Virus record (IMG/VR): IMGVR_UViG_3300048872_000006
Coordinates: 1 to 31,820 of that record
Source of the DNA: a virus
DNA: 31,820 bases
Strand: one strand, 5' to 3'
The notes beneath the pieces were generated by a model, which did not search any database, was not told the origin of the DNA, and saw only the letters and a program-made list of their open reading frames with translations. This document shows, piece by piece, positions 4,359 through 16,800 of this stretch (within the stretch, counting starts at the first letter, position 1; the number at the start of each line of letters is the position of its first letter). A program made the translations under genes and the position numbers.

Positions 4359-4802
4359 CTACTCACCCTTGGCAAAGTCCACGGACCACCCGTACGAGCG
4401 GCCCACGCCCTCGGTGCGAGTCATGCGGACGCCGACACCCGGACCAACCTCGCCACCGAACGCCTGCATCCCGACCTTCAACGCTTCCTTCTTGGCCTTG
4501 TTGTCGAAGTAGAAGGAAGCGGGAGTTCCGTCCATGAGCTGAACGGAGAGAACGAACTGGGTAAGGGCGATCTTGTCAAGGCCCTCGGTCAGATCGCCCG
4601 AGTGCTTGGGCTTCCACTTGCCGTCGGTCTGCTTCTCCAGGAACATCGGGTTCCAAGATGCATTAACCTCCAACTGCTGCTCTTCCGCGATGTCACTGGT
4701 GATCACACCAGTGAACGAGTCTCCAACGTTCAGCCACTTGGGCGCAGCCGCACGCTTCTCCGCGTAGTCCTTCTTGCCGAAAAGCTCGTCGTACGTAGCC
4801 AT
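4359..4802 (-). CDS. possible OB-fold ssDNA-binding-like protein, 147 aa
   Basis: The protein begins MATYDELFGKKDYAEKRAAA and has alternating strand-like segments (SFTGVITSD, QLEVNASWNP, TQFVLSVQLMDG, ASFYFDN) and a Gly-rich end (FGGEVGPGVGVRM). A small beta protein encoded between a nuclease and the helicase fits the usual place of a phage single-strand-binding protein, but I see no decisive motif and no acidic C-terminal tail. The ATG at 4802 follows AGGAG by 6 nt and is preferred over the frame extending to 4898 through the neighbouring gene. Confidence 0.68.
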   Translation of the reverse strand: MATYDELFGKKDYAEKRAAAPKWLNVGDSFTGVITSDIAEEQQLEVNASWNPMFLEKQTDGKWKPKHSGDLTEGLDKIALTQFVLSVQLMDGTPASFYFDNKAKKEALKVGMQAFGGEVGPGVGVRMTRTEGVGRSYGWSVDFAKGE

Positions 4803-4822
4803 GATATCTCCTGTTAGGTTTC

Positions 4823-5200
4823 TTACTTGAAGTTGAACTTGGGTGCTGCGTTGTTTTCCCAAGGCTTGGGGCTTACCGCTGGAGCGGCGGCCTGCCACGG
4901 CGGGGCCGACACCTCGTCAGCCGCTGCCTGCATGTCCTCTGAACTCGCCCCACTCGGGGGAGGGTTCTCCTTGGGGTTTTCCTCGACCGCTACGACCTTA
5001 CCACCGAGTGAGAGCATGCCCTCTCGGGCTCGCTTCTCGACCTCTTTGTAGGTATCGATCTCAGCGGACTGATACTCAACGAGTTGCTCAACGTACAGCT
5101 TGGCAATCTCGCCGGGTGTCAGGTTGTCGGTCTGGAACTTGTACTCCACAAAGCCGTACTGAACGGCTTTGCTTGGGAACCTGAAGGTAAGTTCTGCCAT
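4823..5200 (-). CDS. hypothetical replication-region protein, 125 aa
   Basis: The N-terminal half (residues 1-75) is a compact alpha/beta sequence (MAELTFRFPSKAVQYGFVEY...). The C-terminal half is low-complexity, rich in Pro, Ala and Glu, and carries two PW motifs (APPWQ, KPWENN) before a basic-aromatic tail ending PKFNFK. A flexible tail with a conserved-looking end is a common protein-docking design in replication proteins, but the family is not recognised. Its ATG shares one base with the TGA of the Cas4-like nuclease gene, so the two are coupled. Confidence 0.66.
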   Translation of the reverse strand: MAELTFRFPSKAVQYGFVEYKFQTDNLTPGEIAKLYVEQLVEYQSAEIDTYKEVEKRAREGMLSLGGKVVAVEENPKENPPPSGASSEDMQAAADEVSAPPWQAAAPAVSPKPWENNAAPKFNFK

Positions 5201-6012
5201 CAGAAAGGGTACCCGTCTTCTTCCGCTGTGTCATAGTACAACGCTCTAGGCGTTCTACCTGCATTCAGTTTGCAGTTCTCTTGATGGAAACAGAAGCGAC
5301 AGTTGTAACCAGCCTGAGTAGGATACAACTTCTGTTGCATCTTCTCGTATACTGCCTGATACTTCGCTCCGACATCCTTCGGTGACACGTTAGACAGGTC
5401 AACCGGTCTTGCCTTGCTGGCCTGAGGGGCCAGCATAGCCCACAACCCAGTGAACGTGTGCTGCTTTCCAGATGTGTAATCCTTGAGCCACTCACGCTCT
5501 AGCAGCAGGGCTTGGTATGTCTCCAACTGGAAGTTGTCCTTAGGCTTTTGCCGTCCAGTCTTCCAGTCAAGTATCACTGGACCGTACTTCTTGTGTCCAC
5601 CCATGATATCGATGAAGGCTTTGATCGGAATAGATAGACCAGGCAGGGAGCCTGATGCATCGTACTCGATCTCCCAGACTTCAATATCCTTGACGAACTC
5701 AAGACCTTTTTCGAGGCACTCTTGAGCGCGCTTCAGGGCGCGCTCTTCAACTACTGGTTCATCATCCGACCCACCATGAAGCCATGACGAAGTGTCAGAC
5801 TCAATGGCCATCTGACGTTTGATGAGATCGTAGAAGATTTGATCAAGGTCGTATGGCTCACCCTTGAGGTGAGCCTCTATCGCAACGTGTACCGCAGAAC
5901 CTATCGGAAGATACCACGTTTGCTTTTGTTCCGCTTCCTTCATCTTGGCTAGATACCAGGATCGAGGACAGCGAAGGTAATCGTTGGCCTGACTGTAACT
6001 GATGTGTCTCAT
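5200..6012 (-). CDS. Cas4/RecB-like PD-(D/E)XK exonuclease
   Basis: A 270-aa PD-(D/E)XK nuclease related to Cas4 and the AddB/RecB nuclease domain. The motif I helix is GSAVHVAIEAHL (His42, Glu46), the metal-binding core is AFIDIMGG (Asp135) then VILDWKTG (Asp149, Lys151), and QLETYQALL (Gln162, Tyr166) is the downstream RecB motif. Four cysteines, Cys15 near the N-terminus and Cys238, Cys241 and Cys247 near the C-terminus, match the iron-sulfur staple of Cas4. It would resect DNA ends in recombination-dependent replication. There is no CRISPR array nearby. The ATG at 6012 follows AAGGAG by 5 nt; the 215-nt stretch upstream is a structured leader. Confidence 0.87.
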   Translation of the reverse strand: MRHISYSQANDYLRCPRSWYLAKMKEAEQKQTWYLPIGSAVHVAIEAHLKGEPYDLDQIFYDLIKRQMAIESDTSSWLHGGSDDEPVVEERALKRAQECLEKGLEFVKDIEVWEIEYDASGSLPGLSIPIKAFIDIMGGHKKYGPVILDWKTGRQKPKDNFQLETYQALLLEREWLKDYTSGKQHTFTGLWAMLAPQASKARPVDLSNVSPKDVGAKYQAVYEKMQQKLYPTQAGYNCRFCFHQENCKLNAGRTPRALYYDTAEEDGYPF

Positions 6013-6227
6013 TCAACTCCTTGACCGGAGGAAGGAAGAGGTTTGTCTCCCCTCCTCCGACCGAGGAGCCTCGCTGCGTAGCTGTTTCCTGACCGACCGT
6101 GAAGCCCTTGCATCAGTTGGCTATAGCGCTACCTATGCCTGTCACTAGCTATCTCCCACCGCAGTGGGAGACCGGCGTTAACCGGCTTCCTCAGGTTCGA
6201 CCCTTCGAAATTCCCTAGCAACTTACG
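6013..6227 (-). other. structured untranslated stretch between tRNA and nuclease gene
   Basis: No convincing gene. The stretch holds several hairpins: CTCCCAC/GTGGGAG (6153-6159 with 6164-6170, 4-nt loop), CCGG pairs around 6172-6185, TTCGA/TCGAA-type pairing near 6196-6209, and CGGAGGA/TCCTCCG flanking the purine-rich segment just before the nuclease gene. It is probably the leader of the nuclease mRNA produced after release of the tRNA. Confidence 0.4.
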
Positions 6228-6301
6228 TAGGCCGCATCGGACTTGAACCGATGCCTCCCTCACTTTAAAGAGGGCGAGCTAACCATCTACTCCAGCGGCC
6301 T
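6228..6301 (-). tRNA. tRNA with 8-nt anticodon loop (specificity uncertain)
   Basis: Read leftward from 6301, the sequence folds as a complete cloverleaf. The acceptor is AGGCCGC with GCGGCCT (7 of 7 pairs). The D arm is GAGT/GCTC with a GG-containing loop, the anticodon stem CCCTC/GAGGG, and the T arm ATCGG-TTCAAGT-CCGAT; the discriminator base is A. No CCA is encoded (CGT follows). The anticodon loop, TTTAAAGT, has eight bases instead of seven, so the anticodon can be read as TAA or AAA depending on register and I do not assign an amino acid. The acceptor and T arm resemble tRNA-Ile. It is the only tRNA I find here. Confidence 0.72.
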
Positions 6302-6362
6302 TACCTACCCGGGTGATCAGTGCCGGGTTGAGCTTGGGGCCCGTCAGCCCCTCGCTCTATCT

Positions 6363-6845
6363 CTATCCTACCGCACGTCGGTCCTTGGCCGCATTGGTTT
6401 TAGCGGCGGCTCTGACGTTGATGCAAGTGCGGCACTTGACCCAGTCGGGCTCCTTGACGTGACCGTTCAAGCACCGACGTTCCTTGACGTAGGAGAGATC
6501 GTTGGGTGAGTAACCCTTCGGTCGACCAGGAAGCTTCCCGCTGAACTTGGAAGGTGCCCGGCCGCCACGATATGTGAAAGCACGGTCATCGAGAGTTGCA
6601 TTCTGCCAGCATTCGTCAATCACAGGGCAGATCTCGCACCACAACTTAGCTTCTTCGAAGTTGTCGACTGTCTTGAGAATCCTTGAAGGCAGATCCAAGT
6701 CCTCGCCGAGCGAGTCCTTGGCATGAGGATGATCTTCGTCCACGATCGAGAAGATAAACGGATCAGCCTTGACGCAGATAGCATCATCCTGCCAAGTCTT
6801 GGCAGGCTCGGATGACATGTCAGCCATATAGAGTTCGTAGGTCAT
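6363..6845 (-). CDS. WhiB-like iron-sulfur regulator with C-terminal zinc ribbon
   Basis: WhiB-like proteins bind a 4Fe-4S cluster and act with the housekeeping sigma factor in Actinobacteria. The four cluster cysteines are present: Cys24 (DDAICVKADP), Cys70 and Cys73 (LWCEICPV) and Cys79 (DECW). They are followed by the turn motif TYRGGRAPSK and a basic stretch. Unusually, residues 120-150 add a second Cys/His set (Cys125, His129, Cys138, Cys141) resembling a zinc ribbon, making 160 aa where most WhiB-like proteins have 80-130. The ATG at 6845 follows GGAG by 11 nt. It may redirect host transcription; phage homologues can mimic or block host Wbl proteins (family knowledge). Confidence 0.86.
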   Translation of the reverse strand: MTYELYMADMSSEPAKTWQDDAICVKADPFIFSIVDEDHPHAKDSLGEDLDLPSRILKTVDNFEEAKLWCEICPVIDECWQNATLDDRAFTYRGGRAPSKFSGKLPGRPKGYSPNDLSYVKERRCLNGHVKEPDWVKCRTCINVRAAAKTNAAKDRRAVG

Positions 6846-6869
6846 TCTGTTCTTTACTCCGATCAGAGG

Positions 6870-6896
6870 ACAGGTCCCCCTTCGGGGGGGACCTGT
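6870..6896. terminator. strong TTCG-loop hairpin upstream of WhiB-like gene
   Basis: ACAGGTCCCCC at 6870-6880 pairs with the G-run and ACCTGT ending at 6896 around a TTCG loop. It lies 25 bp before the WhiB-like start. Neither strand shows a clear T-run, so it may be a terminator needing a factor, or a 5' mRNA hairpin of the WhiB-like transcript. Confidence 0.45.
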
Positions 6897-7140
6897 CTTA
6901 AAGGTTACGTCAGCTCCGGCCCATCGGCCGAATTCTCACAGAGATCATAGCTATCCTTAAACCATCTCACCCCGGCCCCCTGGGGGGGGTCCGGGATCTA
7001 ACCGGTTCAAGGGGTCTTCAGCTAAAGACAGCATACATCGGTTTCGGGGGACCACGTCCAACGGGTTAACAGCGGGATTCGCACAGGTGACGGGCGCCAC
7101 CATACTTTGCTTTCATGGTGCTCCAAAATTTTCCCGCGAG
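6897..7140. other. gene-free stretch with G/C-run hairpin
   Basis: No supported gene. It contains a second GC hairpin (CCCGG...CCGGG, 6971-6995, with opposed C and G runs). At 7125-7146 it holds the AT-rich element AAAATTTTCCCGCGAGAAAA, which can pair TTTTC with GAAAA. The promoter of the WhiB-like gene should lie here but I cannot point to a convincing -35/-10 pair. A 16-codon frame with a GGAG site (7066-7116, leftward) is present but not called. Confidence 0.4.
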
Positions 7141-7163
7141 AAAAAATTGTGACCTACGTCACA
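7141..7163 (-). terminator. intrinsic terminator of the HTH gene
   Basis: Leftward, TGTGAC-GTAG-GTCACA (7163-7148) forms a 6-bp stem directly followed by ATTTTTT, the classical hairpin plus T-run. The stem overlaps the TGA stop of the HTH gene (7159-7161), so the mRNA ends immediately after the coding sequence. Confidence 0.7.
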
Positions 7164-7371
7164 CCGGCTTGGGTCCACTCGGCGTACCGGTTCGGATCGT
7201 TTGCATGGACACCTCGAAGGCGAGTGCAAGCTCCCGCCGGGTGGCGGGAGTCTCGACGAACAGTTGCCGGATGATGTCTCGATCCCGTGGAGTCAGCTTG
7301 GACTTCCTCTCATGAGCCGGGGCCCACCCGGAACCTTGGAGGATGTCATATCTTTTACCGTAGTTCGACAT
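7159..7371 (-). CDS. small helix-turn-helix DNA-binding protein, 70 aa
   Basis: Residues 26-59 (LTPRDRDIIRQLFVETPATR then RELALAFEVSMQTIR) form a clear helix-turn-helix of the sigma-region-4/RNA-polymerase-associated type, with the recognition helix near VSMQTIR. The rest is short and basic. The ATG at 7371 follows AGGAG by 7 nt. It is divergent from the phosphoesterase gene with only 20 bp between them, so it may control both directions. It ends in its own terminator, so it is a single-gene unit. The target is unknown. Confidence 0.75.
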   Translation of the reverse strand: MSNYGKRYDILQGSGWAPAHERKSKLTPRDRDIIRQLFVETPATRRELALAFEVSMQTIRTGTPSGPKPV

Positions 7372-10838: not shown

Positions 10839-10894
10839 TGATCCTAAGTGGATCGAGAAGCCCAGCCCTCAAGGGCTGGACAACTCCACTCACT
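10839..10894 (-). repeat. 56-bp intergenic repeat, copy 1
   Basis: Identical base for base to 11359-11414. It contains the hairpin CCAGCCC-TTGA-GGGCTGG, outer arms AGTGGA/TCCACT, and GATCC/GGATC just before the downstream gene. This copy follows the 148-aa paralogue and precedes the TTG-started membrane peptide. Confidence 0.85.
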
Positions 10895-11336
10895 TAGCGT
10901 ACGGAAGGATCTTCAGTTCGATCTCGTCAGCGATCTCCGAGAACGTGTAACCCTCATCGTCGTTCAAGCTCGTGAGAGCCTGACGGATATCCAAGTACGG
11001 GTCGTCCACGAACTCCCCGTCCTCCGTGATGCCCGCCCATGCCTGAACGGCGGTGGACACGACGGCACCCTGCCCATCGTATCGAAGACTCTTTGAGTCT
11101 TCCGAGTGAGCCGCCGGATCGATGATTCGATCCTGAACTGCCAACTCGCACAGAACCCCGAGGCAGCAGTACCGGATCGGGATAGCTCCATCCTGCTCCG
11201 ATGTGGTGAAGCGAGCCAGTACCGCACGGCCCTGGTGGTACTCACCCGAACGGAGAGCATCGATCCAGCGAGTGATCACGTCCTTGTTCGGGACGGGAAG
11301 TTCGGCCTTCTCGTGGTCGAAGCAGTCTTCACACAT
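10890..11336 (-). CDS. CCLGVLC-family protein, paralogue 1 (148 aa)
   Basis: One of three related proteins here (also 11414-11791 and 12639-12989). Shared landmarks in order are: W-I-D/A/S-x-L-R/I-SGEY-x-Q near residues 24-35, CCLGVLCELA at about 57-66, an A/LP-x-AVQ-x-WAG block, then LTSLNDDEGYTFSEIADEIE near the C-terminus. This copy has an N-terminal extension with two extra cysteines (MCEDCFDHEK). The double cysteine looks structural or metal-binding. The family is found in many phages, to my knowledge without a known function. The start follows AAGGAGAGAAC, the shared leader of this block. Confidence 0.72.
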   Translation of the reverse strand: MCEDCFDHEKAELPVPNKDVITRWIDALRSGEYHQGRAVLARFTTSEQDGAIPIRYCCLGVLCELAVQDRIIDPAAHSEDSKSLRYDGQGAVVSTAVQAWAGITEDGEFVDDPYLDIRQALTSLNDDEGYTFSEIADEIELKILPYAK

Positions 11337-11358
11337 GTTCTCTCCTTGGTTGTTCCGG

Positions 11359-11414
11359 TGATCCTAAGTGGATCGAGAAGCCCAGCCCTCAAGGGCTGGA
11401 CAACTCCACTCACT
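11359..11414 (-). repeat. 56-bp intergenic repeat, copy 2
   Basis: Exact second copy of 10839-10894, here between the stop of paralogue 2 (11414) and the start of paralogue 1 (11336). The pair of copies brackets paralogue 1, suggesting duplication of gene plus leader. Confidence 0.85.
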
Positions 11415-11791
11415 CAGAAGAACCGATCGATCATGTCAGCGATCTCATCGAACGTTGATCCGTGATCGTTCAGGCTAGAAAGAGAGTCTTCCACCTCCGG
11501 CCGCAAAGAACCGGACGCGCTGTTAACCCCAGACCACTCCTGAACCGCCATCGGGAGAGTGACCGGTGACTGATCTCCCGAGTCGGTCGCGCTCGTGCAC
11601 ATGTAGTGCTTAATGAAGCCATTCGGAATGCTAGAGGTGACGACACCCTGTTCCTCTGCCATCTGGCAGAGGACTCCGAGGCAGCAGAACAGGTCTCCGC
11701 CTACGTCGATCGTATGCAGAGCGCTAACGCCCTGCTTGTAGTCCCCACTGCGGAGACGGGCGATCCACTCAGTCTTGATTGCCTTGTCCAT
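11414..11791 (-). CDS. CCLGVLC-family protein, paralogue 2 (125 aa)
   Basis: Same family as its neighbours: EWIARLRSGDYKQGVSAL near the N-terminus, FCCLGVLCQMAEEQ at about 35-48, LPMAVQEWSGV in the middle, and SLSSLNDHGSTFDEIADMID at the C-terminus. The final motif is the best conserved part and looks like a helix packed after an ND turn. The ATG at 11791 has the common GGGAGAGAAC leader with a CCAGCTC-TCCG-GAGCTGG hairpin upstream. Cytoplasmic, unknown function. Confidence 0.72.
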   Translation of the reverse strand: MDKAIKTEWIARLRSGDYKQGVSALHTIDVGGDLFCCLGVLCQMAEEQGVVTSSIPNGFIKHYMCTSATDSGDQSPVTLPMAVQEWSGVNSASGSLRPEVEDSLSSLNDHGSTFDEIADMIDRFF

Positions 11792-11868
11792 GTTCTCTCC
11801 CTGGTTCGTTCCATTGGCCTAAACAGACCGCGCAGCCCAGCTCCGGAGAGCTGGACCACACCGCTCAT

Positions 11869-12309
11869 TTAGATCGGGAACAATTCCGCCTCGGATACGG
11901 TCCGATCCAGGTCAAGGCTGCCTGCCTTGACCGCTTCAACGATCATGTCATGGCCGGAGACCATCTTCTCGGCAGTGTCGTATCCCTGAACGAACCTGGT
12001 GGACATGGCTGGACCCTTGTTCGCGGCGCTGGCAAGTGCTCCGTCACCCACTTCCACCACCATGGTAGAGAAGGTGTTGGGAGTCCGACCGGAGCCACGA
12101 ACCATGTCCTCGAGGAAGGGGGCCGCCACGTAGATCATGTTGATGTACGTGTAGATGGCGTAGTCCCCCGTGTAGGTAACAGCGGAAAGCACTCCGGTCT
12201 CTTCGTCCAAGATGTAGGAATCCTCTCGCACGGAGTCATCGTAGGACTTCCTGAAGATATCCGAAGAGTCGTCCTCGAAGAACTCACCGAAGAACTCGTT
12301 GATGTCCAT
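11869..12309 (-). CDS. hypothetical acidic protein, 146 aa
   Basis: Begins MDINEFFGEFFEDDSSDIFR, very acidic. It contains strand-like segments (YILDEETGVLSAVTY, DYAIYTYINMIYVAAPF) and a helical C-terminal third (TAEKMVSGHDMIVEAVKAG). The ATG at 12309 directly follows GGGAGAGAAC, so the longer frame to 12369 is rejected. Not recognised; possibly an inhibitor-type acidic phage protein, which is speculation from charge alone. Confidence 0.66.
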   Translation of the reverse strand: MDINEFFGEFFEDDSSDIFRKSYDDSVREDSYILDEETGVLSAVTYTGDYAIYTYINMIYVAAPFLEDMVRGSGRTPNTFSTMVVEVGDGALASAANKGPAMSTRFVQGYDTAEKMVSGHDMIVEAVKAGSLDLDRTVSEAELFPI

Positions 12310-12400
12310 GTTCTCTCCCTGTTGTTGCCATTCTCGGTCTCTAGTAGACCAGACGCACCACGTCCCCACCTGAAGATGGAGACGTGGGTCATCCTACCGA

Positions 12401-12616
12401 CTAGATATCCGTTTCCCCATTGGAGCTAGGGGACTGAGCGAGGAAGTCGAGTACGTCGTTGTGCGCTTCACGCACAACCCTTTGCACTGTCGACAGTTTG
12501 TATCCCTTGGACTTCCCGATTACGAGATCGGGAGACGTGTCCTTGAGGAACACCCGGAACCGTGCCTGAGAGATGCCGAACTTCTTCTCAAGCGAGGAAA
12601 TGGTCTCGAACTGCAT
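12401..12616 (-). CDS. small putative DNA-binding HTH protein, 71 aa
   Basis: MQFETISSLEKKFGISQARF then RVFLKDTSPDLVIGKSKGYK reads as an excisionase or MerR-like winged HTH: helix (ISSLEKKF), turn (GIS), recognition helix (QARFRVFLK), wing (LVIGKSKGYKL). A helical tail ends SSNGETDI. The ATG at 12616 follows an AGAAGAG purine tract instead of the common block leader. It could regulate the accessory block; the target is unknown. Confidence 0.62.
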   Translation of the reverse strand: MQFETISSLEKKFGISQARFRVFLKDTSPDLVIGKSKGYKLSTVQRVVREAHNDVLDFLAQSPSSNGETDI

Positions 12617-12638: not shown

Positions 12639-12989
12639 TTAGAAGTTGGTTGCGATGACTTCAGCGATTTGCGGGAAGGTGTAACCCCGCACGTCGTTGT
12701 CGAAGGCCAGAGAGCCTTCCTCTCCGTACAGCCCGGTATTGCTTTCGAGTCCGGCCCATCGCTGGACCTCGATCGGGAGCACGTCAGAGCGACTCTCATC
12801 CCCGTACAGGTGCCAGCCCATACGGTCGACGTGGGCGGGAGGGATTACTCCCTTGCGAACGGCCTGCTCGCACAGAACCCCGAGGCAGCAGTAGCCACCT
12901 TCGCGGCCCTTGAGTACGCCACCGGTCTGTTCGAACTCACCGGAGATGAGGTCAGAGATCCACTCAGCCTTAATGCTCGCATCCATCAT
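12639..12989 (-). CDS. CCLGVLC-family protein, paralogue 3 (116 aa)
   Basis: Third member of the family: AEWISDLISGEFEQTGGVL, then YCCLGVLCEQAVRKGVI, LPIEVQRWAGL and VRGYTFPQIAEVI. Two consecutive ATGs open the gene (12989 and 12986), and the first follows GGGAGAGAAC exactly. It is the most compact copy and is separated from the other two by two unrelated genes. The upstream gap carries a CGCTCCCC/GGGGAGCG hairpin. Confidence 0.72.
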   Translation of the reverse strand: MMDASIKAEWISDLISGEFEQTGGVLKGREGGYCCLGVLCEQAVRKGVIPPAHVDRMGWHLYGDESRSDVLPIEVQRWAGLESNTGLYGEEGSLAFDNDVRGYTFPQIAEVIATNF

Positions 12990-13074
12990 GTTCTCTCCCT
13001 GTTGTTTCGACACCCAACGTGTGATGCCGGGACAACGCTCCCCCCGAAAGGGGAGCGCTCTCCTTGGTCACATG

Positions 13075-13485
13075 TCAGTCGTTCTTCTTGCGATTGGCGT
13101 TATCCAACGCATGGTCCATGGAGGCACCCCACGTCTTACCGCAATCCTGCATCGCCTGGAGCGAGATCAGGAACTTGCGAGCCTTGGCCGTGGCGTACAG
13201 AACGTTGTCACGGTCCATCGCATCGAGTACGGACTCCGCACCATTGGCGGCATAGAGTCCAAAGTCATCCCTGGAGCGCCATTCCAAATCCTGCGCCGGA
13301 ACACCAACGGAAACCAGGATTCGACCCACAATGCAGTCGCCCTCGCCGTTCTCTGCGTATCGGCAGGCCGGACCGTACGGGTCCGAACCCTTACCCTCAT
13401 GACGAGTGTAGACGTAGTTCGCACCCATCTTGTCAAGCTCGGCGGCCGCCAGTGCTACGGCAGTCTTGTAGTTCAGCTTGAACAT
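13075..13485 (-). CDS. hypothetical protein, 136 aa
   Basis: MFKLNYKTAVALAAAELDKM opens a helical N-terminus. A Cys-containing middle follows (GPACRYAENGEGDCIVGRIL) and then a helical C-terminal part (LYATAKARKFLISLQAMQDC). The cysteines are spaced too widely for an obvious metal site. The ATG at 13485 follows AAGGGAGAGAAC and the first pseudoknot cassette (13486-13584). Unknown function. Confidence 0.68.
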   Translation of the reverse strand: MFKLNYKTAVALAAAELDKMGANYVYTRHEGKGSDPYGPACRYAENGEGDCIVGRILVSVGVPAQDLEWRSRDDFGLYAANGAESVLDAMDRDNVLYATAKARKFLISLQAMQDCGKTWGASMDHALDNANRKKND

Positions 13486-13584
13486 GTTCTCTCCCTTGGT
13501 TTAGATGTCTTTCGACACCACCCCGGCTGCTGGATGCAGCCGGACGCTCTGAGCCTAAGGCGGTTTATACTCGCTCAGACGAGT
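13486..13584 (-). promoter_or_regulatory. pseudoknot/hairpin leader cassette 1
   Basis: Read leftward. Hairpin ACTCG-TCTGAG-CGAGT (13584-13569) has a 6-nt loop that is complementary to CTCAGA at 13553-13548, giving an H-type pseudoknot. A GC hairpin (13523-13530 with 13536-13543) follows. Then comes GGTGTC-GAAA-GACATC (13519-13504), and the GGGAGAGAAC ribosome site before the ATG at 13485. The first strand starts inside an upstream TAA. Confidence 0.72.
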
Positions 13585-13614
13585 TAGTCGCAGTCCATGA
13601 AGTCTCGTTCGTCG

Positions 13615-13731
13615 TCAGTCTCGTTCACTACTGATCACGACCTTTCCACATTTCGTGCACTTCTTTGCCCACTGACCCGTTCCATCGGCCAGCGTGAACC
13701 ACGCCGACCAGGAATGGAGGAATAAACACAT
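13615..13731 (-). CDS. zinc-ribbon-like small protein, 38 aa
   Basis: ATG at 13731 (GAGGTG site 7 nt upstream) to TGA at 13615: MCLFLHSWSAWFTLADGTGQ then WAKKCTKCGKVVISSERD. A CTKC knuckle plus the N-terminal Cys/His pair would complete one zinc site. Short proteins with a hydrophobic W-rich start and a CxxCGK end are common in actinophages. A further 14-codon frame follows it before cassette 1 (GTG to TAA, about 13584-13628) and is not called. Confidence 0.52.
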   Translation of the reverse strand: MCLFLHSWSAWFTLADGTGQWAKKCTKCGKVVISSERD

Positions 13732-13737
13732 GCTAGA

Positions 13738-13950
13738 TCACCTCTTCACATCGCATTCATACCACCACTTACCGTCTTGCGACAGCAGTTCGCAGTCTTT
13801 GACGTTGATGTAGTCAGCTCCGGGATGGTGTGCGTCCCATTGTTGGTTTAGAAGGTGCTGGCGGCCGTCGTGGGCGCCTATCTCATAGCTACCGAGACAG
13901 AACCCCGAAGCCGCGAGAATGGCCGCTGAGATGGCGATATACGGCTTCAC
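13738..13950 (-). CDS. small secreted or membrane-anchored protein, 70 aa
   Basis: MKPYIAISAAILAASGFCLG is a typical signal peptide: basic start, hydrophobic core, small residues, with a cysteine at position 18. The remaining 50 residues are polar with two further cysteines (VKDCELL, YECDVKR) that could form a disulfide outside the membrane. It overlaps the next gene by 4 bp. Possibly a surface-exclusion type factor (inference). Confidence 0.6.
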   Translation of the reverse strand: MKPYIAISAAILAASGFCLGSYEIGAHDGRQHLLNQQWDAHHPGADYINVKDCELLSQDGKWWYECDVKR

Positions 13951-14114
13951 TTCTCGTACACCTCAACCTGATAGGCACCCGAACGCTTGACCACCTTGAC
14001 TCCATGAGACTTACCGCGACCCATGTTGGTGAGCAGGCGTGCTTGAGCATGCATCACGTCGTTAGCCTCATCCTTATCGGATGAGGAAAAGACGCTACCG
14101 ATGAACTTAGCCAT
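13947..14114 (-). CDS. hypothetical basic protein, 55 aa
   Basis: MAKFIGSVFSSSDKDEANDV... ends in a strand-turn-strand (GVKVVKRSGAYQVEVYEK). The ATG at 14114 lies at the end of the 75-aa gene and the longer frame to 14261 is antisense-like. Size and basic charge could suit nucleic-acid binding, but no motif is seen. Confidence 0.58.
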   Translation of the reverse strand: MAKFIGSVFSSSDKDEANDVMHAQARLLTNMGRGKSHGVKVVKRSGAYQVEVYEK

Positions 14115-14116
14115 CG

Positions 14117-14344
14117 TCAGATACCCCTCGGAGAGATGACGTGAGCGGTTATCCAGCCGTGCTCGGAGTCCAGCTTCAAGCACTGGACGTAGGAGACCAC
14201 CTGTTCGATGTTCATCCATGCGGTGAACATGTAGATCTCTTCTCCGAAGAACCGGAACCACGTCACGCTAGATCCGGACAGTTCACTCCAACCCTCAGAA
14301 GGGAAGTTGTGTCCAGTCCGGTCAAACCGACTGCCGATATCCAT
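14117..14344 (-). CDS. hypothetical protein, 75 aa
   Basis: MDIGSRFDRTGHNFPSEGWS... has an aromatic-rich core (VTWFRFFGEEIYMFTAWMNI) followed by a helix (EQVVSYVQCLKLD). The ATG at 14344 follows GGGAGAGAAC and the second pseudoknot cassette. The stop is 3 bp from the next start, so the two genes are co-translated. Unknown function. Confidence 0.63.
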   Translation of the reverse strand: MDIGSRFDRTGHNFPSEGWSELSGSSVTWFRFFGEEIYMFTAWMNIEQVVSYVQCLKLDSEHGWITAHVISPRGI

Positions 14345-14458
14345 GTTCTCTCCCTTGGTTCGGTCATCTCTTGCGAGATGCCATCCCCAAGCGATACCCG
14401 AAGGTATCGCCTAGGACGCTCTGAGCCTAAGGCACTATTTATACTCGCTCAGACGAGT
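14345..14458 (-). promoter_or_regulatory. pseudoknot/hairpin leader cassette 2
   Basis: Hairpin ACTCG-TCTGAG-CGAGT (14458-14443) has a loop pairing with CTCAGA at 14425-14420. Next is a GC hairpin, GCGATACC/GGTATCGC (14391-14398 with 14403-14410). CATCTC-GCAA-GAGATG follows (14380-14365, GNRA-type loop), then GGGAGAGAAC before the ATG at 14344. Confidence 0.72.
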
Positions 14459-14459
14459 T

Positions 14460-14888
14460 TTAGTCCTCGCACCCGCAGTCGCAAAGCGACTGGGGATCGA
14501 TGTAGTCGGGGTCGGCCTTCTCCCGCATCTCGATGATGCGGTTTCGCCACATGATGGTGAGATCTTCAGCGGCAAGCCTCGGCCGATAGTCGTCCCAGCC
14601 GTCCTGATCGGTGTCCCCGCTTTCGACGTTAAATCCGCACATCACGTACGAACCGATGTCGTGCATGTCCAGCTTCAGCATCTTGGCACCATCGACCCAC
14701 GAGTTGTACTCGTTGATCGACTTAGCGAACTGAGCCGTGACGCATCGCTGGCCGTTGTAGATGTCCAGGGTCTTGACGTCGATCTCCCAAAGCCAGTTCG
14801 GCCACGCTGCGGAGATCACGTCTACGCCCTTGTCGATCCGATCCGAGTAGTCGATCTCATCCGGAGTGTAGGCGTAGTTACCAAACAT
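14460..14888 (-). CDS. hypothetical protein with Cys-rich end, 142 aa
   Basis: MFGNYAYTPDEIDYSDRIDK opens a soluble alpha/beta protein with many aromatic residues, ending QSLCDCGCED. The terminal CDCGC cluster recurs in the 153-aa gene at 15910 (GCDCDLCML), suggesting a shared metal-binding end. The ATG at 14888 follows cassette 3 and GGGAGAGAAC. Unknown function. Confidence 0.67.
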   Translation of the reverse strand: MFGNYAYTPDEIDYSDRIDKGVDVISAAWPNWLWEIDVKTLDIYNGQRCVTAQFAKSINEYNSWVDGAKMLKLDMHDIGSYVMCGFNVESGDTDQDGWDDYRPRLAAEDLTIMWRNRIIEMREKADPDYIDPQSLCDCGCED

Positions 14889-14992
14889 GTTCTCTCCCTT
14901 GGTTTAGGAGTCTCTTGCGAGACGCCACCCCCAACCCTTTCGGGTTGGGACGCTCACAGCCTAAGGCTCTATTTAAAGTCGCTGTGACGACT
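14889..14992 (-). promoter_or_regulatory. pseudoknot/hairpin leader cassette 3
   Basis: Hairpin AGTCG-TCACAG-CGACT (14992-14977) has a loop pairing with CTGTGA at 14959-14954. Both the stem and the loop/tail differ from cassettes 1 and 2 yet remain complementary. A GC hairpin CCCAACCC/GGGTTGGG (14930-14949) and GTCTC-GCAA-GAGAC (14923-14910) precede GGGAGAGAAC. Confidence 0.75.
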
Positions 14993-15390
14993 TACAGCTC
15001 GTGCCACACCTTGACATCGGTGACAGGCTCCATGTTCTCTGTTGTGTCCAGCTTCGGGGAGTACGGGATCTCCTGCCACCAGTTGTGGGCACTCTTGGAG
15101 ATGAAACTGATCGAGTACGTCCACCAGTTACCGTATTGGTCCTGCTTTTCATCGAGGCCGTAGAACATGCTGCCACCGTTGGAACCGTATGCCCCGAGGT
15201 GGTCCCGGAGAACGTCTAGGATGTAGTCGTTCAGGTCCTCGTCATCCGCATCGATGGAGAGAACGGTACCGGCATCGTTCCGAGACTCGGCGAACTCGAA
15301 GATGGACCACTTCGGATCGATGTAGCCATCCGACTCCTCGCCCTTCTCGTCCACACGAGTGGCGGACATGAAGGCGTGAATGTAGGTCAT
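14992..15390 (-). CDS. hypothetical protein, 132 aa
   Basis: MTYIHAFMSATRVDEKGEES begins a soluble acidic protein. A helix-like stretch (EDLNDYILDVLRDHLGAYG) is followed by aromatic strands (WWTYSISFIS) and ends VTDVKVWHEL. The ATG at 15390 follows GGGAGAGAAC, so the frame up to 15435 is not used. Its TAA overlaps the pseudoknot stem of cassette 3. No family recognised. Confidence 0.67.
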   Translation of the reverse strand: MTYIHAFMSATRVDEKGEESDGYIDPKWSIFEFAESRNDAGTVLSIDADDEDLNDYILDVLRDHLGAYGSNGGSMFYGLDEKQDQYGNWWTYSISFISKSAHNWWQEIPYSPKLDTTENMEPVTDVKVWHEL

Positions 15391-15494
15391 GTTCTCTCCC
15401 TTGGTTCTGGCATGGTTGCCACCCCCAAGCGGCACCCGGAGGTGCCGCCTAGGACGCTTAGGGCTTAAGACGGTTTAAAGTCGCCCTAACGACT
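15391..15494 (-). promoter_or_regulatory. pseudoknot/hairpin leader cassette 4
   Basis: Hairpin AGTCG-TTAGGG-CGACT (15494-15479) has a loop pairing with CCCTAA at 15463-15458. A GC hairpin GCGGCACC/GGTGCCGC follows (15429-15448), then TGGCA-ACCA-TGCCA (15421-15408) and GGGAGAGAAC. The stem overlaps the TAG of the upstream gene. Confidence 0.75.
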
Positions 15495-15804
15495 AGCTGT
15501 ACATCTTGCGCAGGCCGTTGTATTCGCTGGCGCTGATCTTGTAGGTGCCGTGGTGATACCGACCCTGGTGAGCGGGACCGAAGTTGATGCGCACCCACTC
15601 ATCCAGGGAGAAGTAACCCTGGAGGCCCTCCTCCACCCACCACTCAGTGGGACGGGGGGCGTCTTCACCTTCCAGCACCGTACCGGGCTGGAGGATTTCC
15701 TTGACGTGCCATCCACGGCGAGGAGACCCGTTCCGGTCGTTCGGTGCCATCAAGTAGTTGGCAACGATCGGACGGAAGTAATCACCGAAAGCGATGTCAG
15801 ACAT
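15493..15804 (-). CDS. hypothetical protein, 103 aa
   Basis: MSDIAFGDYFRPIVANYLMA... is rich in Trp, Tyr and Gly, with motifs such as GWHVKEILQPGTVLEGED and EGLQGYFSLDEWVRINFGPA. The strand-turn pattern suggests a small beta-barrel. The ATG at 15804 follows cassette 5. Unknown function, typical of phage early accessory genes. Confidence 0.67.
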   Translation of the reverse strand: MSDIAFGDYFRPIVANYLMAPNDRNGSPRRGWHVKEILQPGTVLEGEDAPRPTEWWVEEGLQGYFSLDEWVRINFGPAHQGRYHHGTYKISASEYNGLRKMYS

Positions 15805-15910
15805 GTTCTCTCCCTTGTTGAGACATCTAGCGATGTCACCCCCAAGCCTCGCATTCAGCGAGGCTTGGGACGCTTAGGGCTTAAGACGGTTTAAAGTCGC
15901 CCTAACGACT
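15805..15910 (-). promoter_or_regulatory. pseudoknot/hairpin leader cassette 5
   Basis: Hairpin AGTCG-TTAGGG-CGACT (15910-15895) has a loop pairing with CCCTAA at 15879-15874. The strongest GC hairpin of the set follows, 12 bp (15841-15852 with 15858-15869), then GACATC-GCTA-GATGTC (15837-15822) and GGGAGAGAAC before the ATG at 15804. Confidence 0.75.
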
Positions 15911-16371
15911 TACAGCATGCAGAGATCGCAGTCGCAACCATTGGTGATCGCGTCGTTGATCTCTTTGTTAATCACACACTGACCGCACACGCAGTCCACG
16001 TTGACGTGGCGGATGCAGCGCTCCTCCAAGACCGTCACGCACTCCACGTCGAGAGAGGTTCCCACGATCATGTAGGTCTCACCCTGTAGCGGCGTGTTGG
16101 ACTTGACCACATCGTAGTGAAGCCCGACGAATTCGGCGCGCTTCTCCCGGGTGGGGAAGTACATGGTCTCCGGAGTCTCGAACATCCCGTCGGAGACGGT
16201 GGTCGTTGCCAGGAACGCGCAACGGTCACGGTACTCCTGCCGGATGTTGGCCTTCTCTCGCTCGGTCACGAGAGTCAGTTCGCACAGGTACTCATCGATA
16301 GAGATGAGACCACGGACGTACTGACGCTCCAACTTGTTGATGCGGTCGGCAAGGCTCAGGTTGGTGTTCAT
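15910..16371 (-). CDS. hypothetical protein with coiled coil and Cys-rich C-terminus, 153 aa
   Basis: The N-terminal 55 residues (SLADRINKLERQYVRGLISI then EYLCELTLVTEREKANIRQE) look like a helical hairpin or short coiled coil. The C-terminal 40 residues hold eight cysteines (VECVTV, ERCIRH, DCVCGQC, GCDCDLC), suggesting one or two zinc sites. It is the first gene after the control region, so probably the earliest expressed leftward gene. Its leader (GGGAGAACAGAATG) is a variant of the common GGGAGAGAACATG and resembles that of the WhiB-like gene. Unknown function. Confidence 0.7.
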   Translation of the reverse strand: MNTNLSLADRINKLERQYVRGLISIDEYLCELTLVTEREKANIRQEYRDRCAFLATTTVSDGMFETPETMYFPTREKRAEFVGLHYDVVKSNTPLQGETYMIVGTSLDVECVTVLEERCIRHVNVDCVCGQCVINKEINDAITNGCDCDLCML

Positions 16372-16800
16372 TCTGTTCTCCCGTTGTTCGAGAGTAGCGA
16401 AGCGCCACTCAGAACGGAGGACGAACCCTACTAGGCCCGTAGGCTGTTCGGTTAAGGACGCTTCGACTCCGAAGAGACGTGATTCGGCGCATTACCGCCT
16501 ACTAGGGGTGATCACACAGGCCCCACAACACCACTTACTACCCGTAGGCCGAACCTACTCGGTTTGACTCATGGCTGTATCCATTAGCGAGTCGGTGTGG
16601 TTTCGCGTCCAAGTTCATCCCCCATTCTGAGAGCCACTAGGAACAGTGACTCTCAAACAAAGGGAGGAAGGAACATTACCCGTAAACCACCTAGCTCCCG
16701 AGTCGGACAAGTCCCAGCCACCCCACAAGGGTGGCGTTCAACGACTGGAAGAGCTATTAGGTGACACGCCGTGGCGTGTCGTCTAGTTCTCCGGGTTGCT
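16372..16800 (-). other. hairpin-rich leader of the leftward accessory operon
   Basis: No gene is supported. Leftward transcripts from the promoters near 17 kb would carry these hairpins: GACACGCC/GGCGTGTC (about 16769-16786), GCCACCC/GGGTGGC (16717-16735), a 10-bp stem GAGAGCCACT/AGTGACTCTC with one mismatch (16629-16654), and CCTAC/GTAGG inside CGAAC/GTTCG (about 16424-16452). The run of stable hairpins before the first coding gene fits an attenuation or antitermination leader. Confidence 0.5.

Follow-up and report, generated by a model that had tools for sequence, protein, structure and literature searches.

Pistol ribozymes (Rfam RF02679) lie near phage genes (PMC4604425, PMC6154101). They cut themselves at the P3-P2 junction, after P3 (PMC4604425, PMC6154101), and the placement of purine 32, G33, G40, C41 and G42 in the active site is known from published structures (PMC6154101). 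No established biological role of pistol ribozymes was found in the open-licence literature. We analyzed an RNA fold that occurs five times in gaps between small genes of IMG/VR virus record IMGVR_UViG_3300048872_000006, the whole of which (31,820 bases) is called the window here; by sequence, the five copies are pistol self-cleaving ribozymes. All evidence in the analysis was sequence-based.

Structured intergenic RNAs give rise to single-gene mRNAs in two familiar systems, the RNase III sites between the early genes of phage T7 and the tRNA punctuation of mitochondrial transcripts. In those systems a protein enzyme or RNase P makes the cut, whereas the window element belongs to a ribozyme family. 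Among published repeats spread over whole operons, the closest that were found are the start-associated sequences of cluster K mycobacteriophages, namely SAS, with 13 bp of fixed sequence, and ESAS, whose conserved inverted repeat measures 17 bp (PMC3203893). Like the window elements, they recur at numerous translation starts, in some cases preceded by an inverted repeat (PMC3203893), yet they are different, as the window elements are covarying RNAs of a catalytic family that start at the previous stop codon. The type-II hammerhead (RF02276) differs from pistol in fold and core, but it occupies the same slot between stop codon and ribosome site in the relatives L024, L157 and L180, and by eye it gives the same product layout.

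The window elements share with known pistols P1, the six-pair pseudoknot, P2, P3, the active-site bases, the cut-site position and the phage context (PMC4604425). They differ from known pistols in that a single operon has five of them, that every copy begins at a stop codon and allows a hairpin at the start of its downstream product, and that they belong to a relative of Streptomyces phages, whereas the setting said to be common is that of Firmicutes. The open-licence literature searched gave no description of pistols arrayed at gene junctions, of an exchange of modules, or of the pseudoknot and the minihelix presented below. Five pistols per operon at stop codons, exchanged for other modules in relatives, raise the direct question of whether they are gene separators of mRNA.

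Pistol ribozymes in the gaps of a small-gene operon

The small-gene operon of the window runs leftward from 16371 to about 10800, and most of its products are without known function. The five elements lie in the gaps separating the first genes of the operon, and each of them matched RF02679 (Table 1). All scores exceeded the cut-off of 34.5 bits, model positions 1-68 of 68 were covered in every copy, and the E-values of 4e-11 to 4e-6 in the window scan were far beyond chance. The initial annotation of this DNA had described five copies of one RNA architecture on the minus strand, which is what the RF02679 match in all five copies shows, but its remark that it knew of no fitting named element is corrected by the Rfam search. 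The elements are new members of a known ribozyme class.

Table 1. Positions of the RNA elements and of associated features (window coordinates unless a contig is named)
Feature	Position	Strand	Remarks
Pistol copy 1	13516-13584	(-)	RF02679, 70.5 bits; predicted cut 13521/13520
Pistol copy 2	14379-14458	(-)	RF02679, 63.3 bits; predicted cut 14384/14383, A-U instead of G-U
Pistol copy 3	14923-14992	(-)	RF02679, 65.6 bits; predicted cut 14928/14927
Pistol copy 4	15417-15494	(-)	RF02679, 48.6 bits; predicted cut 15422/15421
Pistol copy 5	15834-15910	(-)	RF02679, 56.9 bits; predicted cut 15839/15838
Copy 1 downstream product start	13483-13520	(-)	Hairpin GGUGUC-GAAA-GACAUC, then ribosome site, ATG
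Small gene, phrog_572 family	13075-13485	(-)	PHROG assignment; homologues elsewhere preceded by differing RNA modules
Pseudoknot c1	10840-10897	(-)	Strand A CUAAGUG, hairpin B, hairpin C GAUC-CACUUAG-GAUC
Pseudoknot c2	11360-11417	(-)	Found by descriptor
Pseudoknot c3	11816-11872	(-)	Found by descriptor
Pseudoknot c4	12336-12404	(-)	Found by descriptor
Pseudoknot c5, weak or variant	13008-13074	(-)	One strand A mismatch; read by eye, looser descriptor
Type-II hammerhead match at stop codon	L157 7439-7499		Under Rfam cut-off

The stems, loops and tails of the initial annotation, whose sequences had been given correctly, correspond to P1 and to the six-pair pseudoknot in the pistol fold. P1 is ACTCG/CGAGT in two copies and AGTCG/CGACT in three, and the loop/tail pairs are TCTGAG/CTCAGA (two copies), TCACAG/CTGTGA (one copy) and TTAGGG/CCCTAA (two copies). 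The measured distance from stem 1 to the tail was 15-17 nt rather than 14-15 nt. The P2 helix and the P3 hairpin, the latter being the GC-rich hairpin, were present by the cmscan alignments, and P2 also varies, with GCC/GGC in copies 2 and 3 and GUC/GAC in copy 5. The active-site bases purine 32, G33, G40, C41 and G42 were found in all five copies in the alignment, where they were mapped by eye (numbering of PMC6154101). The modestly conserved cut-site dinucleotide was G-U in four copies, and the junction length was kept in all five.

The pairing was tested in an alignment of the five copies and seven other pistols, which contained 11 distinct rows. The data showed that 100% of the P1 and pseudoknot cells were paired, in comparison with 81.4% in shuffles and no more than 43% when the partner was slid, and that 21 cells had changed on both sides, in comparison with 5.9 in shuffles. 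Covariation with pairing kept, which had been put forward as a sign of selected RNA structure, is borne out by these values. Family membership, position and pairing of the five elements are thereby shown.

It had been suggested that the elements could be attenuators, ligand sensors, translation-restart devices or mRNA processing elements, and promoter DNA had been named as the finding that would speak against an RNA element. No promoter-like site was found in 12900-16600 by a consensus scan, which would miss other promoter types, and no terminator-like site was found within the elements. That the elements are an attenuator, a ligand sensor or a promoter region instead of ribozymes is hardly credible: they are structured and lie upstream of genes, and nothing else speaks for it, whereas the full-length pistol match and the results of the scan argue against it. 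Translation restart is likewise unsupported, the elements having the core of a catalyst and not that of a switch. mRNA processing is the best of the options offered.

Gap anatomy and predicted cut products

Each element spans the gap from the stop codon of the upstream gene to just before the ribosome site of the next gene. The stop codon has one base in common with P1 in copy 1 (13586-13584), copy 3 (14994-14992) and copy 5 (15912-15910), and two bases in copy 4 (15495-15493), while in copy 2 (14462-14460) it lies one base ahead of P1; the first hairpin does stand at or beside the upstream stop, as had been noted. The tetraloop hairpin and the GGGAGAGAAC ribosome site that had been described further on were seen downstream of all five copies. 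In copy 1 the 5' arm of the tetraloop hairpin doubles as the 3' strand of P2, and the same layout was found after copies 2-5. The P2 3' strands of the five copies are GGUG, GGCA, GGCG, GGCA and GACA, and each is shared with the tetraloop hairpin as part of its 5' arm.

In the minimum-energy folds of all five predicted cut products, the tetraloop hairpin started at nucleotide 1 or 2 of the product and was the only predicted structure ahead of the ribosome site, and the individual product folds were only modestly better than their own shuffles. Among pistols from public contigs, 17 of 34 had a hairpin at the product start, in comparison with 6.6 expected from shuffles. Here and below, the samples of contigs and elements are biased by the pattern scans, and several contigs are possibly close kin of each other, so that copy counts do not represent independent events.

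Taken together, the sequence data make it probable that the five new pistols cut the small-gene operon into single-gene mRNAs. Each pistol would fold in the leftward transcript by forming P1, the P1-loop pseudoknot, P2 and P3, and would cut itself between P3 and P2 at G-U, or at A-U in copy 2. Because the known cut site lies after P3, the GC-rich hairpin would stay with the upstream mRNA, whose 3' terminus would consist of the P1/pseudoknot/P3 structure and bear a 2',3'-cyclic phosphate. A U with a 5'-OH would be the first nucleotide of the downstream mRNA, and the few nucleotides after it would give up their pairing in P2 to form the 5' arm of the tetraloop hairpin. This hairpin could help the products to separate and could cap the new 5' end, shielding it while the ribosome site stays open. 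The expected outcome is an operon split into single-gene mRNAs with structured ends. We infer from this arrangement that cleavage may take place in the infected cell, that the ends may be stabilised and that punctuation of the operon may be the selected role.

The pistols might also cut while selection acts on the upstream gene only, so that the pseudoknot and the GC hairpin serve as a 3'-end shield against exonuclease and the separation of the downstream gene is a by-product. Every element starts at the upstream stop codon, as such a shield would, but the start of the downstream product also carries a hairpin in all five copies, and we regard selection for the upstream gene alone as unlikely.

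RNA modules in further gaps and in relatives

Pistols over stop codons were also found outside the window. The IMG/VR pattern scan gave 54 stretches, and a pistol was present in 48 of the 50 records tested, some of which had two to four. Contigs L073 and L086 contain several pistols with the upstream stop codon inside the P1 loop, and in the named phages Troll and Count an annotated gene end overlaps the pistol match; pistols over stop codons occur in unrelated phages. The related contig L043, whose terminase DNA is 73% identical to that of WRightOn, has two pistols at stop codons. One of these precedes a weak homologue (E 7e-5) of window gene 14992-15390, which is itself preceded by a pistol.

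Four or five further gaps of the window's own operon contain an unnamed pseudoknot (Table 1). It consists of strand A, which usually holds the stop codon, an imperfect hairpin B, and a hairpin C directly before the ribosome site, and the 5-8 nt loop of hairpin C pairs with strand A. MAFFT alignments of the copies were too poor for a covariance model, and therefore a descriptor with shuffle controls was used. Of the 88 unique gaps taken from the window and its relatives, 40 contained the pseudoknot by the strict descriptor, in comparison with 1-8 in ten shuffle sets and 2 matches on the reverse complements; since the descriptor itself selects pairing, the support lies in the contrast with shuffles and not in pair counts. 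Loose descriptor scans had little specificity. An own-versus-foreign pairing test gave 50 matches against a permutation mean of 29.6, and the 40/88 version with the hairpin requirement was cleaner. At one slot in four named phages, the sameness of which was judged from gene order and length, 10 pairs were double-changed in comparison with 4.4 in shuffles. Copies were seen in gaps of window 10840-12404 (-) and in L006, L015, L019, L027 and L028-L031, and phage Manuel also has pseudoknots of this kind.

No Rfam match was found for the pseudoknot, which may be a new class. That it would be cut follows solely from the company it keeps. No obvious invariant core was seen by eye in the strict-descriptor list, so that a pure 3'-end shield is conceivable for it, which would fit selection on the upstream gene only. 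A hairpin, GAGUGG-CGCUUCG-CUACUC, was also observed upstream of the first operon gene (window 16465-16390, (-)). A CGAAGCG sequence lying about 48 nt upstream is able to pair with the loop of this hairpin, which resembles the gap pseudoknots but has no gene directly before it.

The type-II hammerhead was not present in the window. In L024 a match at 867-932, which starts at a stop codon, reached 49.4 bits (cut-off 37); a second L024 copy at about 2955-2890, which also begins at a stop codon, had 35.5 bits and was under the cut-off, as were the copies in L157, L180 and L192 (31.7 bits). By eye, the core was intact in the hammerheads before the gene in L157 and L180, and the products have the order GC hairpin, cut, hairpin, ribosome site.

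A tRNA-like minihelix was found in relatives. It has a 5-pair acceptor, a 12-nt linker with GGCANACA and a T arm; pairing and covariation of the acceptor stem and T arm are those expected of a tRNA, but there is no anticodon arm, as only 12 nt lead from the acceptor to the T arm. The pattern scan gave 88 unique copies, 73 of which had an open-frame stop codon within 25 nt, and 64 of these 73 stop-adjacent copies also had a downstream start. In 21 sequences all helix cells were paired, and 57 cells were double-changed in comparison with 16.0 in shuffles; the search pattern itself prescribed the sequence of the T loop. Neither Rfam nor ARAGORN called the minihelix where scanned. Its processing by RNase P is conceivable as a guess. 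In phage RedBear (L125) about eight gaps have a minihelix, and it was also observed in one gene gap after another of Streptomyces phages and of further contigs (L043 at about 6556, 5771 and 5252; L024 at about 1843; L153 at 4436-7300). The pseudoknot and the minihelix occupy the same slots as the pistols, have no Rfam match at the gathering score where scanned, and are accessible to experiment in the laboratory phages Manuel, WRightOn and RedBear.

The exchange of these modules was followed upstream of the phrog_572 gene. In the window this gene is preceded by a pistol, whereas its homologues are preceded by the pseudoknot in L027, by the minihelix in L043, L153 and L136, by hammerhead II in L157 and L180, and by a long unnamed element in FlowerPower. 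The identities are low (26-36%), and these genes are therefore homologues, not proven orthologues. The automatic slot classifier missed several cases, among them L027 and window copies 2-4, where a false stop codon was chosen, and the slots that it missed were read by eye or rest on Rfam. Among the exchanged modules, two belong to self-cutting families and a third is like a processing substrate. The simplest task that the modules could share, and the most likely one, is to divide a transcript gene by gene into mRNAs whose ends are structured. We propose only tentatively, as a doubtful extension, that in Streptomyces phages the early operons of small genes have RNA-processing modules as interchangeable punctuation, with the pseudoknot as a new self-cleaving or enzyme-cut processing RNA.

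Several observations weigh against the proposal that the five pistols cut the operon into single-gene mRNAs. One P2 pair is mismatched in copies 3, 4 and 5 in the cmscan alignments, and the cut site of copy 2 is A-U. Pistol was absent from the 22 portal relatives that were tested first, so the ribozyme itself is not conserved across the group. The pseudoknot fills most gaps in the relatives and is not known to be cut, so the function that is shared may not be cutting. The absence from the portal relatives, together with the near identity of copies 4 and 5 across the core, would also agree with elements that spread or hitch-hike at the recombination boundaries of a mosaic genome and persist for their own benefit, not for that of gene expression. 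This origin is very unlikely, because both helices are preserved by compensatory changes, the elements are placed exactly between stop codon and ribosome site, and the slot in relatives is filled by different RNA modules of similar layout.

Relatives of the window and minor elements

The portal protein of the window is about 74-76% identical to those of the Streptomyces phages WRightOn, Manuel, Abafar, FlowerPower and Immanuel3, and every fetched phage whose record gives a subfamily belongs to Beephvirinae. Megablast of the region of the five elements against named phages gave no match.

A long conserved gap element was observed in L028 (12660-12833), L029 (10381-10566), L030 (10617-10797) and L031 (10995-11168), and also in L142 and L159. 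Its hairpin around CCGAAACAUAAGUAGG, closed by a long stem, resembles the sarcin-ricin motif, and Rfam gave no match for the element. A further shared gap element, AGGGGUAACCAAGCCCUCAGUGGAGUGCAACUCUCCCCCGCUC, was seen in L159 upstream of 6968 (-), and a similar one in L043 at about 4740-4800 (-). The window also contains a tRNA gene at 6227-6301 (-), to which ARAGORN assigns the unusual four-base anticodon taaa; in relatives, a tRNA stands in a comparable position, after the gene of the Cas4-like exonuclease or before it, between this gene and its neighbor.

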